NCBI RefSeq assembly: GCF_003001995.1
Contig: NZ_PVNB01000002.1
Span: forward strand, 1 to 64,000
Origin: Orenia metallireducens
GTDB taxonomy: Bacteria; Bacillota; Halanaerobiia; Halobacteroidales; Halobacteroidaceae
Length of the DNA stretch: 64,000 nucleotides
Reading direction: 5' to 3'
Made by a program: the position numbers and the translations under genes. The notes under the pieces were generated by a model. It searched no databases, was not told the origin of the DNA, and was given only the letters and a program-made list of their open reading frames with translations. This document shows, piece by piece, positions 12,569 through 60,827 of the stretch (within the stretch, counting starts at the first letter, position 1; every line of letters starts with the position of its first letter).

Positions 12569-13114
12569 TTAGATTCCGCTTTCAAATTTAATAACATAAT
12601 CTTTTACTTGTGATAAGTAGCCAGCTGTAGTCAACTTAAAAGATTTAGTCTGCTTATCAGCAAAGTTATTAAGCTGGATATAGTTAGTTCCAATAACAGA
12701 ACCTAAGTTATTATATAATTTAATAATAAAAGTAGTTGATTGATAGTCTTTACCTGTCTGATTGGTCAGCTTGCCAGTAATATTAATTCTACCATTACTT
12801 CCTCTTAGCTTAATATCCTTATAGACAAATCCAGGGTTTATAGTTTCCCCATCTGTATCTTCTGATAGATTATTAGATATAGATTCTTTGGATATCCAAC
12901 CTTCAACCTTGACCTTAATCCATCTGTCAGTTGAACCAATTACCTCAACTTGAGTATCTTTAGGAAGGGTGGTTATAGCTCTTCCATTTGGTTCAATTCT
13001 TAATTTCTCTTGATTTACTTTAATGAAGAATATCTGTTTAGCCCAAGCGGTTAGTGCTATCAGTAGAAAAGAAAAAATTATTAAGAAAATTATCTTCTTA
13101 TTAATATTAATCAC
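12569..13114 (-). CDS. secreted SH3 and FxLYD-like domain protein
   Basis: 181 residues. Signal peptide or N-terminal anchor (residues 7-25), then a bacterial SH3 domain (about 32-78: KLRIEPNGRAITTLPKDTQVEVIG ... WISKES), a linker, and a FxLYD-like domain (about 95-178: SNGRINITGKLTNQTGKDYQ, IIKLYNNLGSVIG). Domain order and wording match the protein at 23373-23993, so they are paralogues. The location is outside the membrane; SH3 domains often bind wall peptides. The start is uncertain: GTG abuts the AGGAG; an ATT eight bases after it is also possible. Confidence 0.72.
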   Translation of the reverse strand: MININKKIIFLIIFSFLLIALTAWAKQIFFIKVNQEKLRIEPNGRAITTLPKDTQVEVIGSTDRWIKVKVEGWISKESISNNLSEDTDGETINPGFVYKDIKLRGSNGRINITGKLTNQTGKDYQSTTFIIKLYNNLGSVIGTNYIQLNNFADKQTKSFKLTTAGYLSQVKDYVIKFESGI

Positions 13115-13852: not shown

Positions 13853-15202
13853 ATGAAAATAGTAGTAATTGGTGGAGTTGCTGCAGGGACTAGTGCGGCA
13901 GCTAGAGCCAAACGGATTAATCCTGAAGCTGAGATTGTAATCTTTGAAAGAGATAGTGATATCTCTTATTCTGGTTGTGGACTCCCTTATTATATATCTA
14001 ATATAGTTGAAGCAAGAGATGGTGTTATTATTTATACGCCAGAGAGGTTTGAAGCTAAAAAAGGGGCAGAGGTCAAAGCTCAACATTCTGTTGAAGATAT
14101 ACTAGTAGATAGAAAAGAGATAGTAGTGAGGGATATTTTAAGGAATGAAGTTAAGAGGGTAAGCTATGATAAACTATTAATTGCTACTGGAGCAAGCCCT
14201 ATTGTTCCTGAGATTAAAGGGATAGACTTAGATAATATCTTTCCCTTAAGAAATGTCCATAATGCTGATAGAATCATTGATTATATCCAATTAAATCAGC
14301 CTAAAAAAGCAGTGGTTATTGGTGGTGGATATATTGGTTTAGAATTGACTGAAAGCTTATTAGAGTATGGTATAGAGGTCAGTGTAGTAGAGAAAGCCCA
14401 CCAACTTTTAACCAATCTCGATGCTGATATGGCAGAGATAGTCGCTGAGCATCTAGAAGCTAAAGGGGTAGAGCTAATTTTAGGCGATGGAGTTGTAGAG
14501 TTTCAAGGTGATAAGAGTGTAAAACGAGTTATTACAGAATCAGGCCAAGAGTTGGACTGTGATTTTGTGATCTTAGCCATTGGTGTCAGACCAAATACAG
14601 ATCTAGCAAAGAGGGCAGGGATTGAGTGTGGAAATACAGGAGCAATCAAGGTTAACTCCAAGATGGAGACCAATATTGCTGATATCTATGCAGCAGGAGA
14701 TTGTGTTGAGAGTATCAATTTGATTACTGGTCAGCCAATTTGGGTGCCGCTAGGTTCTACTGCTAACAAGCATGGTAGGGTAGCAGGTAGTAATTTATGT
14801 GGAGTAGAGGATCAATTTAAAGGTATTTTAGGTACAGCAATTACTAAAGTCTGTGACTTAGCTGTTGGATGTACAGGGTTAACTGTTAGAGAGGCAGAAG
14901 AGAAGGGGTATAAAGTGGTCAGTTCTGTAATTAAAGCAGGTAATCATGCTGGCTATTATCCTGGTTATACTAAGATTAATATCAAGCTGGTTGTAGAACA
15001 AGATAGTGGTAGAATCTTAGGTGGGCAGATAGTTGGTAAAGATGGGGTAGATAAGAGAGTAGATGTCTTAGCTACAGCTATTCACAATGAAATGAAGGCA
15101 GCTGAGTTGATTGATCTTGATTTATCCTATGCACCGCCTTTTTCTGTACCTAAAGATGGATTAATGATAGCAGGTTTAGTAACTGATAAGAAGAGAAATT
15201 AA
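13853..15202 (+). CDS. CoA-disulfide-reductase-like flavoprotein
   Basis: 449 residues of the pyridine-nucleotide-disulfide oxidoreductase fold. FAD motif IGGVAAGTSAAARAKR; a single redox Cys at residue 42 in SYSGCGLPYYI; NAD(P)H motif VVIGGGYIGLE at about 160; FAD motif IYAAGDC; dimerisation domain from about 320. One active-site Cys rather than CxxxxC is the hallmark of CoA-disulfide reductase and NADH peroxidase/oxidase relatives. It would reduce CoA disulfide, persulfides or peroxide. There is no C-terminal rhodanese domain. AGGAGGCG RBS. Convergent with the CODH gene, sharing a two-way terminator. Confidence 0.88.
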   Translation: MKIVVIGGVAAGTSAAARAKRINPEAEIVIFERDSDISYSGCGLPYYISNIVEARDGVIIYTPERFEAKKGAEVKAQHSVEDILVDRKEIVVRDILRNEVKRVSYDKLLIATGASPIVPEIKGIDLDNIFPLRNVHNADRIIDYIQLNQPKKAVVIGGGYIGLELTESLLEYGIEVSVVEKAHQLLTNLDADMAEIVAEHLEAKGVELILGDGVVEFQGDKSVKRVITESGQELDCDFVILAIGVRPNTDLAKRAGIECGNTGAIKVNSKMETNIADIYAAGDCVESINLITGQPIWVPLGSTANKHGRVAGSNLCGVEDQFKGILGTAITKVCDLAVGCTGLTVREAEEKGYKVVSSVIKAGNHAGYYPGYTKINIKLVVEQDSGRILGGQIVGKDGVDKRVDVLATAIHNEMKAAELIDLDLSYAPPFSVPKDGLMIAGLVTDKKRN

Positions 15203-15238: not shown

Positions 15239-17377
15239 TTATAGTCCTAACTCTTTTCTTTTCTTCTCAATATGATCTACATAGATTTGGACTGTCTTTT
15301 CAGCATCCATCTCTACTACTACCTTACCTAATCCAAGAGTTTCTGTAGTCTCAGTAAGAGTCTTAACTACTACATCACTACCTGTAATAGAAGGTACTGG
15401 AGCAACATGTACCAACCAACCAAGTGCAATAGCAGTACAAGCATCAGCAACGGCCTTCTGTTCAAGATACTCTGGTGCACCAATAACTAATGGTAGTTTA
15501 TTAGTATCTACCTCTAAGGTATCAGCAATCTCCTTGGCAGTTTGAGTCATCTTACCGATATCGACACAAGCACCATAACTCAATACAGGTGGAATACCCA
15601 ACTGTTCACAGACAGCTTTTAATCCATCACCACATTCCTTAGCAGCTTTAGGATCAGTTAATCCTGTATATTCCATCACAGCAGAAGTACATCCACCAGA
15701 CAGAACTAGGATATTATTCTCAATCAATCCTTTAGTAATCTTAAAGATATTACTTCCACCTTGACCATAGCGAGCAGTAGTACATCCTACAATAGTAGCG
15801 ATACCTCTGATATTACCATTGGCAATCTGGTCAATTAGTGGTTTAAAGTCCCCACCAAGGGCTTCTTTGACCGATTCTGTACTGAATCCAACCATACAGT
15901 CAGAAGTATGTGGTGGGATATAAGTTTCTTTATTAGATTGTTTACGTTCTTTAAAGGATTCAATTGCTTTTTCTAAGGCTTTTTCTGCTTGTTCTTTCAT
16001 CTTTTCTGGAACAAAGTCTAAAGTTTCAGTTCCTTGTAACTTAATTACAGGGTGGGTACTTAATAATTTAGTACCGAATTTTTTAGCAAAGAGTGGCATA
16101 GTAGGCACAGTACAGTTATAGTCGAACATGAACATATCTACTACACCAGTTGCCAATAGATATTCTTGGCTCAACCATTCCCCTTCTTGTCCTCCGTATC
16201 CTGCTTGGTTATGGGTACCTTCATAGTTCATCAGTTGTTGTCCTTCACAGACATGACCAAGAATTTGAATACCTTCTGCACCAGCATCTTTGGCCTTTTG
16301 TTGCCACTGCTCACTAGAAGCAAGATCAATTGCAACATGAGAAAGTAAGGGCATATGACCATTTGTTACAATGTTAATCATATTCTCATCTAAAAGACCC
16401 ATATTCTGTTTCTTCTTAGTTATCTCTTGAGTACCCATCAGGATTTCTTGGAGAATATCCAATAGGAATAACCCTTGATATTCATTGGCAACTCCTAAAC
16501 GAACAGATCTCAATAAGAACTCAATTGGGTCAGAGTTGAAGTTGGTCATACACTGAGTCTGAGAATAAGCAACCTCACTATATCCACCACCTGGGAATAG
16601 TCCAAGCTCTCTCCATAGCTTTTTACGTTTAGCAGGAGCAAAGGCTTCTACAGCTTTAGATTCAATATGATAAGGGCTGTGGATATCATCTATAACCCAA
16701 TTAGCAAAGGAAACGGCTAGCTCTTCAATAGATTTATTTGAGTCCAGTCCTGCCATTTCAGCATACTTCTTCAATTTTTCTGGATCACGAATCTTTAATC
16801 CACTCTCAGGATGCTCACCAGCAGCTTTTAGAGTTCTAGCAGCTTGCTGGGCATGGAAGATGTTGGCTGAGGTACCGATAGTAACATGGCGATACATGAA
16901 GTTTCTAGCAACCATAGTATGAGCATCAACACCACAGGTTCCACGAGGGGCTTTAGGATGGATACGGCAAGGACCGTTAGCACATAATTGGCAAGAAAGT
17001 CCCTCTACACAAAATTTACATTGAATCGGTTGTTGTTCACTAAAACGGTCAAAGACATTTGTCATCTCTGCTTTATTGACCACTTGATACATCTCTCTCA
17101 TCGCAGGGTCAATAATAACATTCATTGGATACCCATCTTTACCTTGGTCATCCTTTGCAATATGTTCTCTCTGCCATTTATGTACCTCTTCCATCGAAGG
17201 TGACTTTTCAAAATCATTATAATCTACTTTTACATTATTGTGAATATCTCCATGGGTTTCAGGGTCATTATAGTCTTTATTTGATAATTGGGAACCGATA
17301 GTCTTATCGGCTTGGGATTTACCTTGCATTCTCTTAGCACTTCGTTCATAAGAATTCTTTACATCTTGATCTGACAT
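15239..17377 (-). CDS. cooS: divergent Ni-Fe-S carbon monoxide dehydrogenase
   Basis: 712 residues, longer than the usual 630-640 because of a polar N-terminal stretch of about 100. Cys120, 123, 129, 132, 137 and 148 make the B/D cluster motifs (FCVEGLSCQLCANGPCR). C-cluster candidates are His341 (TNGHMP), Cys377, Cys422 (DYNC), Cys532 (VGCTT), Cys563 (GGCTS) and Cys604 (GACVD), plus Lys641. The usual GxCCTGNE segment reads GHVCEGQQ and the usual HSDH histidine segment reads NIFH, so both electron- and proton-path residues differ. CO oxidation is therefore plausible but unproven. No cooF, cooC or acetyl-CoA synthase lies nearby. RBS GGGGAGG before the ATG. Confidence 0.85.
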   Translation of the reverse strand: MSDQDVKNSYERSAKRMQGKSQADKTIGSQLSNKDYNDPETHGDIHNNVKVDYNDFEKSPSMEEVHKWQREHIAKDDQGKDGYPMNVIIDPAMREMYQVVNKAEMTNVFDRFSEQQPIQCKFCVEGLSCQLCANGPCRIHPKAPRGTCGVDAHTMVARNFMYRHVTIGTSANIFHAQQAARTLKAAGEHPESGLKIRDPEKLKKYAEMAGLDSNKSIEELAVSFANWVIDDIHSPYHIESKAVEAFAPAKRKKLWRELGLFPGGGYSEVAYSQTQCMTNFNSDPIEFLLRSVRLGVANEYQGLFLLDILQEILMGTQEITKKKQNMGLLDENMINIVTNGHMPLLSHVAIDLASSEQWQQKAKDAGAEGIQILGHVCEGQQLMNYEGTHNQAGYGGQEGEWLSQEYLLATGVVDMFMFDYNCTVPTMPLFAKKFGTKLLSTHPVIKLQGTETLDFVPEKMKEQAEKALEKAIESFKERKQSNKETYIPPHTSDCMVGFSTESVKEALGGDFKPLIDQIANGNIRGIATIVGCTTARYGQGGSNIFKITKGLIENNILVLSGGCTSAVMEYTGLTDPKAAKECGDGLKAVCEQLGIPPVLSYGACVDIGKMTQTAKEIADTLEVDTNKLPLVIGAPEYLEQKAVADACTAIALGWLVHVAPVPSITGSDVVVKTLTETTETLGLGKVVVEMDAEKTVQIYVDHIEKKRKELGL

Positions 17378-17417: not shown

Positions 17418-17518
17418 ATACTGATAGTATTAATTAAAGTTATAATGAATATACAAAGAAAGAATTATTTTTGAAAAATCAAATTTTAGATAGATGATTA
17501 TTTAAAGGAGGGATATTG

Positions 17519-18283
17519 ATGAGCAGAAATAAAGTGGAGTTAAAAGAGTTATTGCTAAGATTGAATTCAGGAGAGAATATTGCAGAAGTAAAAGAAGAAG
17601 CTAGGGCATTACTAGAAAGAATTAGCCCTAAAGAGTTATCTGAAGCAGAGCAGGAGCTAATTAATGAGGGCTTGCCAGAGACAGAATTACGCCACTTATG
17701 TGAAGCACATATTGAAGCAATGGCAGAAGAGCTAACAGCATTAAAAGCCGAAGTAGAAGTTGGTCATCCTTTACAGATTTTAATTGCTGAGCATGATGAG
17801 ATATTAAAGGTCTTAACTAGGTTAGAAGAAGTAAATCGAGCAATTCAGAAGCTAGATAGTTATGATACTAATAACTTTATTTTTGATGAATTAAAGGAGA
17901 TAGCCTACCTATTATTAGAGACAGAGAATCACCATAAGCGGGAGGAAGAAGCCTTATTTCCAGAGGTAGACCAGACAGGGGTTACAGGACCAACAAGAAT
18001 TATGAAGATGGAGCATGAAGACCTTTGGCCTAGAAAAGAGAGGATTGACTATTTAGCTCAACATGTGGAAGGGATAGATTTTGATGATTTTAGAGAAGAG
18101 TTAAATCAGCAGGCAGAGTATTTGATTTTAACACTAAGAGACCATATCTTTAAAGAGAATTACATTCTATATCCAACAGCTAAAGAGGTAATTCCAGAGG
18201 ATAGATGGGAAGAGATTAAAAGAAATAGTGATGAAATTGGTTATTGTTCCTTTACACCAATAAGAGTGGATAGGAAAAATTAG
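17519..18283 (+). CDS. DUF438-hemerythrin domain protein
   Basis: 254 residues from the ATG at 17519 (AAGGAGGG upstream). N-terminal DUF438 domain (about 1-85): LSEAEQELINEGLPETELRH then LCEAHIE. Then a hemerythrin HHE domain (about 90-240) with iron-ligand candidates H in LIAEHDEI, ENHHKREEEALFPEV, MKMEHEDLWP and LRDHIFKENYILYP. Such proteins bind O2 or NO at a di-iron centre and serve in nitrosative/oxidative defence (relatives of the Ric/YtfE idea). The full-length family can end in a PAS domain, absent here. Divergent from the CODH. Confidence 0.88.
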   Translation: MSRNKVELKELLLRLNSGENIAEVKEEARALLERISPKELSEAEQELINEGLPETELRHLCEAHIEAMAEELTALKAEVEVGHPLQILIAEHDEILKVLTRLEEVNRAIQKLDSYDTNNFIFDELKEIAYLLLETENHHKREEEALFPEVDQTGVTGPTRIMKMEHEDLWPRKERIDYLAQHVEGIDFDDFREELNQQAEYLILTLRDHIFKENYILYPTAKEVIPEDRWEEIKRNSDEIGYCSFTPIRVDRKN

Positions 18284-23372: not shown

Positions 23373-23993
23373 CTATTTTTGAAACTCTATCCTATAATTT
23401 TTGACTTGAGTTGGGTCACAATCGATAGAAGTAGCAAAGGAACGAGTTTCATTTGCTGATAATTTCTTAATTCTACTATAGCCAGTTCCAATTAGCTCAT
23501 TATTTGAGTCATATAAAGTAATTTTAAATTTAGCTTCCTTTAAATAAATACCAGAATAATTGGTTATTTCTCCTTGAACTCTAGTATAGCCAAAGGATCT
23601 AGTTAGCTTGATCTTATCATAGATAAAGCTACTATTAGTTACTTCAGTTTTCTTTGCTTTAGTTTCTTCATTTTTAATTTTGTTAGCTGTGCTATTATCT
23701 TCTTTATTAGCAGGTTTATCTTTTTTTATTATAGGTTCTTCTTTTGAAGCGGTAAGATCTACAATTGAATCCGTTAAAACCCAACCTTCTATCTGTACTT
23801 TGCTCCATTTACCACTAGATTCGATTACTTTAACCTCAGTCCCTTCTGATAGTGTAGTGATGCTCTTACCCTGAGGTCGAGCCATAAGCTTGGTGTTATC
23901 TGATTTAATTACAAAAAATCCCTGGGCAAAAACAGTCAAACTAGCCACTAATAGGGCTAAAGATAAATAAATAATAACTCTTCTTTTCATCAT
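23373..23993 (-). CDS. secreted SH3 and FxLYD-like domain protein
   Basis: 206 residues. Signal peptide (residues 4-23), bacterial SH3 domain (about 28-80: LMARPQGKSITTLSEGTEVK ... GWVLTDS), a Lys/Glu/Asn-rich linker (about 84-118), and a FxLYD-like domain (about 120-205: FIYDKIKLTRSFGYTRVQGE, KFKITLYDSNNELIGTGY). Clear paralogue of 12569-13114, mainly differing by the longer linker. Probably an exported wall-associated protein. GGAGGA precedes the ATG. Confidence 0.78.
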   Translation of the reverse strand: MMKRRVIIYLSLALLVASLTVFAQGFFVIKSDNTKLMARPQGKSITTLSEGTEVKVIESSGKWSKVQIEGWVLTDSIVDLTASKEEPIIKKDKPANKEDNSTANKIKNEETKAKKTEVTNSSFIYDKIKLTRSFGYTRVQGEITNYSGIYLKEAKFKITLYDSNNELIGTGYSRIKKLSANETRSFATSIDCDPTQVKNYRIEFQK

Positions 23994-51851: not shown

Positions 51852-52481
51852 ATGCCAACAGATACTTTCTTTAATCTACCTCAAGAGAAGCAGGATAGAA
51901 TTATTGCTGTAGCCATAGATGAGTTTGCTAATTATGCTTATCATAATTCTACTATAAATCGGATAGTAGAGAAGGCTGAGATAGCAAAAGGGAGTTTTTA
52001 TCAGTACTTTAATGGGAAAAAGGATTTATTTAAATATATAATGCTAGATATTATAGGGAAAAGGAAATTAGAATATCTTGATTATATGGTAGAAAATATG
52101 GATAAGTTAAATTTTTTTCACCATTTACGTGAGCTTTATTTAGGTGGAGTTAAGTTTGCTAAAGATAATCCTAAGTTACAAGCTATAGCAACTAAATTTA
52201 TTAAAGATAGTAGTAATGATTTGAAAAAGGAGATTTTAGGTGAGACTGCTGTTGCTGGTAATGATTTTATGAAAGAATTGTTAGTTAAAGGGGTAAAAGA
52301 AGCAGAGATTAAACCTGACTTAAATATAGATGTAATAGTATTTATTCTGATCCAATTTAATTTTTCAGCCTTTGAATTTCTATTTAATAAGATTGAAGTT
52401 TGGGATGAAGAGCAAATAGTAGCTTTGATTGATGATCTATTGTATATAGTGGAGAATGGGATTAAGAATAAGAACTATTGA
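51852..52481 (+). CDS. TetR-family regulator
   Basis: 209 residues. N-terminal HTH (about 10-55): KQDRIIAVAIDEFANYAYHN, INRIVEKAEIAKGSFYQYFN. C-terminal ligand domain helical. Its first nine residues MPTDTFFNL match the TetR at 60207 exactly; the two are paralogues. A TAAC-tcgttt-GTTA palindrome just upstream may be its operator. No obvious target gene follows; repeat and IS remnants do. Confidence 0.9.
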   Translation: MPTDTFFNLPQEKQDRIIAVAIDEFANYAYHNSTINRIVEKAEIAKGSFYQYFNGKKDLFKYIMLDIIGKRKLEYLDYMVENMDKLNFFHHLRELYLGGVKFAKDNPKLQAIATKFIKDSSNDLKKEILGETAVAGNDFMKELLVKGVKEAEIKPDLNIDVIVFILIQFNFSAFEFLFNKIEVWDEEQIVALIDDLLYIVENGIKNKNY

Positions 52482-60206: not shown

Positions 60207-60827
60207 ATGCCCACAGATACATTTTTTAATCTAGGAGAAGATAAAAGAGAGAGGGTGATTAAAGCTGCTATTGATGAATTTGCCAAATATCCTTATCATA
60301 AGTCAAGTATTAATCGTATAGTAAAGAAGGCAGATATAGCCAAAGGTAGTTTTTATCAATATTTTGCTGACAAATCAGATATATTCAAATATATAATAGA
60401 TTTATTAATGGAAAAGGAGTTTGCTTATTCAGAAGAGATTATGAATAATTTTAAAGCATTGAATTTTTTTGATACATTGAAGATAATCTGTATAAAGTTG
60501 ATTGATTATTATAAAGAAAATTTAAAATTAGTCGATGTCTGGGTTAATTTTTTGAAGATGGATGACAATGATTTTAAGGGGAAGATATTACAGGGTATAA
60601 TTGAACAGAGTGATAGCTTCTTTAAGGAACTATTGTTTGAAGGTGTGCAAAGAGGTGAGATAGACAATAAAATTGATTTAGATTTAACTGCGCATCTGCT
60701 AACTGGTCTGATTATGGGAATGCTTGATAAAGTATCAAATAATTACAAAGAAGAAGGAGATATTGAAAAATTTTTTGATAAGATTGATGAAATATTAGAA
60801 ATAATTGAGAATGGAATTAAGAACTAA
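60207..60827 (+). CDS. TetR-family regulator of ABC exporter
   Basis: 206 residues. HTH at about 10-55 (KRERVIKAAIDEFAKYPYHK, SINRIVKKADIAKGSFYQYF); helical ligand domain after. Paralogue of 51852-52481. AAAGGAGGAG RBS. Preceded by two matching palindromes that overlap the promoter region, so it probably represses itself and the downstream exporter genes. Confidence 0.92.
   Translation: MPTDTFFNLGEDKRERVIKAAIDEFAKYPYHKSSINRIVKKADIAKGSFYQYFADKSDIFKYIIDLLMEKEFAYSEEIMNNFKALNFFDTLKIICIKLIDYYKENLKLVDVWVNFLKMDDNDFKGKILQGIIEQSDSFFKELLFEGVQRGEIDNKIDLDLTAHLLTGLIMGMLDKVSNNYKEEGDIEKFFDKIDEILEIIENGIKN

Follow-up and report, generated by a model that had tools for sequence, protein, structure and literature searches.

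A CODH-like protein of Orenia metallireducens, assigned to clade D structural group D-2, and its possible activity

What reaction might be expected of a protein that carries the complete set of metal ligands of a CO dehydrogenase (CODH) and lacks the histidine that serves CODH as its acid-base residue? The question is raised by a gene in the 64,000-nucleotide stretch of Orenia metallireducens DNA analyzed here (the window), which starts at 17377 and ends at 15239 on the minus strand, and which encodes a CODH-like protein of 712 residues preceded by a clear ribosome-binding site. The initial annotation had the same open reading frame, 15239-17377; the strand is added here. Nei-Gojobori counts against three relatives gave dN/dS values of 0.03-0.05, so that the gene is under strong purifying selection, and this together with the intact frame ruled out a pseudogene or an artefact. 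The protein scores 679 bits with the CooS-type CODH model TIGR01702 (curated cut-off 478), a score that is no indicator of CO activity, and 500 bits with the Prismane/CODH superfamily model PF03063 (gathering cut-off 27), and it reaches only 30.2 and 36.4 bits with the hybrid cluster protein (HCP) models TIGR01703 and NF003658, whose cut-offs are 360.8 and 367. On these profile scores it is taken as a member of the Prismane/CODH family.

The metal sites were assessed by aligning the protein with 82 near relatives, with more distant family members and with four PDB chains, the sites being numbered by CooS-V. A 16-site signature is identical in all 83 near-full-length members (the window protein and its 82 relatives), and the motif pattern is therefore not due to chance. 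The six Cys of the B and D clusters reported by the initial annotation are all in place (16934..17020, on the minus strand, as are all features of this protein), with C120 and C123 belonging to a type III (CX2CX5C) D-cluster and C129, C132, C137 and C148 to the B-cluster. The protein had been credited with most of the C-cluster ligands, and the alignment gives all six: H341 (16355..16357; His259 of CooS-V), C377 (Cys295 of CODH-II, Glu295 of CooS-V), C422 (16112..16114; Cys333 of CODH-II, Cys338 of CooS-V), C532 (15782..15784; Cys446 and Cys449, respectively), C563 (15689..15691; Cys476 and Cys480) and C604 (15566..15568; Cys526 and Cys521). C377 lies in the motif GHVCEGQQ (residues 374-381, 16235..16258), which had been read correctly and described as the lack of GxCCTGNE. 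The motif is indeed altered, its counterparts being GICCTGNE in clade F and GSIESGQE in CooS-V, but the description misleads, as the one loss is that of the leading Cys in G-x-C-C, which is not a ligand; the ligand equivalent to Cys295 is retained. Likewise, the usual histidine path does read NIFH (residues 172-175, 16853..16864), and the change can be stated more precisely: the fourth-position His is kept and the acid-base His (His93 of CODH-II) is replaced by Asn172, at a site that is Tyr in clades C, D-1 and D-3/4 and Asn in D-2. An EQK motif (15455..15463) provides Glu639, which corresponds to Glu556 of CooS-V and Glu494 of HCP (for their roles, see PMC9311411), and Lys641, the equivalent of Lys563 of CODH-II. 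Of the acid-base His and Lys pair expected of a functional Ni,Fe-CODH, the protein has only the Lys.

This pattern is one that has already been catalogued. Structural group D-2 of clade D is given in Table 2 of Inoue et al. 2019 (PMC6344411) as having a type III D-cluster, a C-cluster with His and five Cys, Asn and Lys, and the window protein and its 82 relatives agree with the tabulated entries at all positions, no difference being found from the pattern of the representative listed there (WP_015926279). On its signature and its position in the tree, rather than by direct comparison with that representative, the window gene is assigned to D-2, a group that is catalogued and uncharacterised; no characterised D-2 enzyme and no D-2 enzyme assay were found in the literature searched. 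The initial annotation, which had suspected an uncommon clade, was roughly right, except that the clade already appears in that table. The Cys295 to Glu change that marks D-1 is not seen, with C377 present in 83 of 83 members. In a maximum-likelihood tree, in which the other clades are represented only by Bacillota rows and PDB chains, D-2 forms one clade (support 100) that is the sister of D-1, the group of CooS-V (SH-aLRT 97, all columns), and with the signature columns masked the branch uniting D-1 and D-2 has a support of 99/98. Placing D-2 with D-3/4 was rejected (p-AU 0.003), as was placing it with clade C (0.012); D-1 with D-3/4 was not rejected at 5% (p-AU 0.063). Set against the known CODH clades, as had been proposed as a check, D-2 falls beside D-1 and not within a proven CODH clade that has the same substitutions. 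Provided that the favoured topology is correct, the type III D-cluster would appear to predate Cys295Glu, two features earlier noted as correlated (PMC9311411), and D-2 offers a natural test of the succession of changes that led to CooS-V. The D-2 stem is long (~1.1 changes per site) and its crown is shallow. The window protein is 68-85% identical to D-2 members in distant genera, and members from the class of the window organism are scattered across different parts of the crown, which suggests horizontal transfer.

Among enzymes of known structure, the closest is CooS-V of Carboxydothermus hydrogenoformans (D-1, PDB 7B7Q), which catalyzes neither CO oxidation nor CO2 reduction, contains an Fe-S-O hybrid cluster, shows slow NH2OH reduction and is regarded as a probable reductase (PMC9311411). 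An AlphaFold model of the window protein (mean pLDDT 92, pTM 0.91), a prediction also proposed with the initial annotation, confidently has the CODH fold. The best Foldseek match of the model is CooS-V (TM 0.96 by target, 1.6 A, within an overall 1.5-1.6 A), which is also the best PDB sequence match (445 bits, 36% identity), and VIA-align places many CODHs and CooS-V close together (Z 54-58). CooS-V shares with D-2 the type III D-cluster and an Asn and a Glu next to the cluster, and differs in having Glu295 and Tyr where D-2 has Cys377 and Asn172, and in having no long extension. CODH-II and CODH-IV of the same organism (clade F, ~32-34% identity to the window protein) have the fold, the B cluster, the six C-cluster ligands and Lys563 in common with D-2, but have a type II D-cluster, His93 and catalytic CO oxidation, and carry Gln and Ser/His where D-2 has Asn421 and Glu639. 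HCP belongs to the same superfamily (PF03063), its Glu494 is matched by Glu639, and a shared capacity for reducing small N/O substrates is possible; unlike D-2, which lies far below the HCP model cut-offs, HCP has Glu268 where D-2 keeps Cys.

Two features are peculiar to D-2. One is an N-terminal extension specific to the group (residues 1-85, 17123..17377), previously put at about 100 residues; it is real and amounts to ~80, as the PDB CODH structures align only from model residue 80-85 onward. Residues 1 to ~80 have no PDB CODH counterpart and are modelled partly as helices (pLDDT 66-88), and W68, Q69, R70, H72, G82 and P84 are invariant among 23 aligned members. The other is a set of 65 positions at which D-2 has a near-invariant residue that the remaining sampled clades hardly ever show. 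Several of these positions flank ligands. They include H375, E378 and Q381 around C377, residue 378 being T in nearly all other sampled clades; Y385, which is Arg in all other sampled rows; E400, which is Asn in nearly all of them; G540 and N543 after C532; and K609, five residues after C604 and Arg in all other sampled rows. To judge from the sequence and the known fold, these residues would lie near the cluster, so that the active-site lining, or second sphere, of D-2 appears to have been rebuilt. With its metal ligands kept, acid-base His lost and pocket rebuilt, D-2 lends itself as a natural test case for the residues that determine whether a Ni,Fe or an Fe-S-O hybrid cluster is formed.

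In whole-genome searches, which covered Bacillota, D-2 was carried by 17 of 398 sampled species, and a pattern scan of 84,980 species gave 67 D-2 loci, where the records with group-naming titles were all from Bacillota. Several dozen named genomes have it, including Halonatronum, Ruminiclostridium, Anaerocolumna, Pelosinus, Sporomusa and Alkaliphilus, and the genome of Geosporobacter ferrireducens contains two D-2 genes. A putative CODH of 'Ca. Galacturonibacter soehngenii' (PMC7000372) was considered as a further member and rejected; it reads as an ordinary HCP, since Roseburia and Butyrivibrio are the genera that have homologues of it. D-2 is the sole CODH above the cut-off in 7 of 21 D-2 genomes, ACS (PF03598) is absent from 17 of the 21, and CooC is found in nine and is absent from all seven D-2-only genomes. 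CooC is present in every one of the nine D-2 genomes with a further His-type CODH and in none of the other 12 (Fisher p 3e-6, kinship ignored), the further CODH having been residue-typed as His/Lys in seven of the nine (that of genome G203 and one CODH set of G033 are untyped). CooC adjoins the His/Lys-type CODH in most of the seven typed genomes, and in the 12 CooC-less genomes D-2 is either alone or accompanied by Tyr-type CODHs. D-2 is independent of CooC and ACS. Since it is the only "CODH" of those seven genomes, which have neither ACS nor CooC, automatic CODH annotation by TIGR01702 over-predicts CO metabolism. The 65 group-specific residues, the N-terminal extension, the D-2-only genomes and the failure of CooC to track D-2 are new here; no description of the extension, the second-sphere signature or the CooC pattern was found in the accessible text of PMC6344411.

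In the window, the surroundings of the gene have no cooC, cooF or acs, as the initial annotation stated, and neither ACS (PF03598) nor CooC occurs in the whole genome. A second CODH in this genome (contig C5, 41023-42843) has a clade C signature (Tyr, Gln); it has an N-terminal Cys motif and adjoins a gene for an FNOR-like flavoprotein. HCP shows a weakly enriched co-occurrence with D-2 (16/17 vs 259/381, p 0.014, not corrected for kinship). The window genome has two HCPs alongside its two CODH-like enzymes (contig C1, 32306-33934, and contig C7, 149690-150970), apparently of two classes, with frames of 552 and 459 residues.

Overall, the best explanation, to which we assign a probability of about one half, is that D-2 is a solitary, low-potential Fe-S(-O) reductase that acts on small nitrogen or oxygen species and not on CO. 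The protein would be a solitary, presumably homodimeric enzyme with the CODH fold, and in the cell it would not serve as a CO dehydrogenase, since it has another residue in place of the proton-relay His and keeps the Asn421/Glu639 pair, the equivalents of which are used by CooS-V with its hybrid cluster (PMC9311411). Low-potential electrons would most likely reach the active-site Fe-S (or Fe-S-O) cluster, assembled without the nickel-insertion ATPase CooC, by way of the D ([2Fe-2S]) and B ([4Fe-4S]) clusters, and would there reduce small N- or O-containing molecules, for example, hydroxylamine, NO or peroxide, in what may be a protective or housekeeping role in anaerobic Bacillota. An activity altered from that of CODH is plausible given the lost acid-base His, the remodelled second sphere and a sister D-1 enzyme without CO activity. 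Loss of His93 would be expected to affect CO oxidation; no paper with rates for a His93 mutant was found in the literature searched. In Clostridioides difficile, the cooS gene CD0174, probably a gene of the neighbouring clade C to judge from its likely operon with oxidoreductases, rose by log2 8.3 under sigma-B overexpression and is listed with aerobic/nitrosative stress (PMC7494833), and according to the accessible text of PMC6344411 clade C genes rise on oxygen exposure. Against a reductase of this type, D-2 keeps the full ligand set of the Ni,Fe cluster, including the equivalent of Cys295, a residue that the hybrid-cluster group has by definition lost; Glu639 and Asn421 are shared with clades C and D-3/4 and hence are not diagnostic of a hybrid cluster; and the D-2 loci have in common no neighbour or promoter motif pointing to N/O chemistry.

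The strongest alternative, although we regard it as unlikely, is that D-2 is a genuine Ni,Fe-CODH of low or specialised CO/CO2 activity, with nickel inserted without CooC and the function of His93 taken over by Asn172 or another residue. It would account for the six retained C-cluster ligands and Lys641 and for the TIGR01702 score above the cut-off, and the absence of CooC does not exclude nickel, as CODH-II matures and is active without CooC (PMC13056359); in addition, low CO oxidation has been reported for the clade C enzyme of T. kivui, from a CO-adapted strain (PMC13056359). What counts against it is that the acid-base His is missing from every D-2 member, that residues conserved in nearly all other sampled clades are exchanged (R to Y at 385, R to K at 609, T to E at 378 and N to E at 400), and that the group so often lives without CooC (7/7 D-2-only genomes) and ACS. 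We consider it somewhat less probable that the CODH scaffold of D-2 holds an active-site cluster of a third kind, distinct from both the Ni-containing cluster C and the CooS-V hybrid cluster. This would be an Fe-S cluster with five Cys and one His as ligands, set in a remodelled pocket and catalysing a reaction yet to be identified, and D-2 would mark the stage after the D-cluster had changed and before Cys295 was lost.

It is also conceivable, if improbable, that D-2 is a non-catalytic redox sensor or electron buffer, the cluster of which follows the cellular redox state and the extension of which signals to a partner. The ordered, group-specific extension with its invariant residues fits such a function, clades C and D have been proposed to act in regulation (PMC13056359), and three Crp-family regulators were found among 132 near neighbours of D-2. 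The residues that flank the ligands are among the most conserved, however, which suggests chemistry, and when the reading frames around 84 D-2 loci were clustered, no partner gene was conserved beyond close relatives. A Crp/FNR-family gene lies ~0.1-1.8 kb from D-2 in seven loci from several genera and is a possible regulator. HcpR, FNR, Rex, PerR/Fur and NsrR-like sites were not enriched in the promoters and no family-wide motif was found; the sigma-G sites (3 vs 0.5 expected) and sigma-F sites (2 vs 0.0) are both marginal. A link to sporulation was set aside as too weak (SpoIVA in 17/17 vs 319/381, p 0.05, kinship ignored).

The gene does lie beside oxidative-stress genes in the window, as was first pointed out. 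It is flanked by a convergent gene for a CoA-disulfide-reductase-like flavoprotein (13853..15202, plus strand; Pyr_redox_2, with a TIGR03385 score of 497 bits that is below the cut-off) and a divergent gene for a protein with DUF438 and hemerythrin domains (17516..18283, plus strand; from profile matches, kept only within the genus), and its flanks also encode a flavodoxin, a hemerythrin-containing MCP and an FprA-type flavodiiron protein. Only within the genus are the flavoprotein, hemerythrin and flavodoxin genes found together again, and this context is no evidence on the D-2 family because the arrangement is not conserved. Some D-2 genes are near FNOR according to the accessible text of Inoue et al. 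(PMC6344411), and in Pfam counts pyridine-nucleotide flavoproteins were only mildly more frequent among near than among distant genes. The proposal that D-2 forms an oxygen/NO-detoxification cluster with these flavoprotein, hemerythrin, flavodoxin and FprA genes is the least probable of those considered, since, even with a pyridine-nucleotide flavoprotein adjoining D-2 in 5 of 44 other loci and missing from the frequent families of distant genes, the window flavoprotein is convergent, the hemerythrin gene is divergent and, across the 84 loci, neither of the two arrangements is retained outside the genus. Elsewhere in the window, genes for two similar exported SH3-like proteins flank the CODH/stress stretch (12569-13114 and 23373-23993, minus strand), and two closely similar TetR-type regulators are encoded ~8 kb apart (51852-52481 and 60207-60827, plus strand), the second of them directly upstream of ABC-transporter genes.
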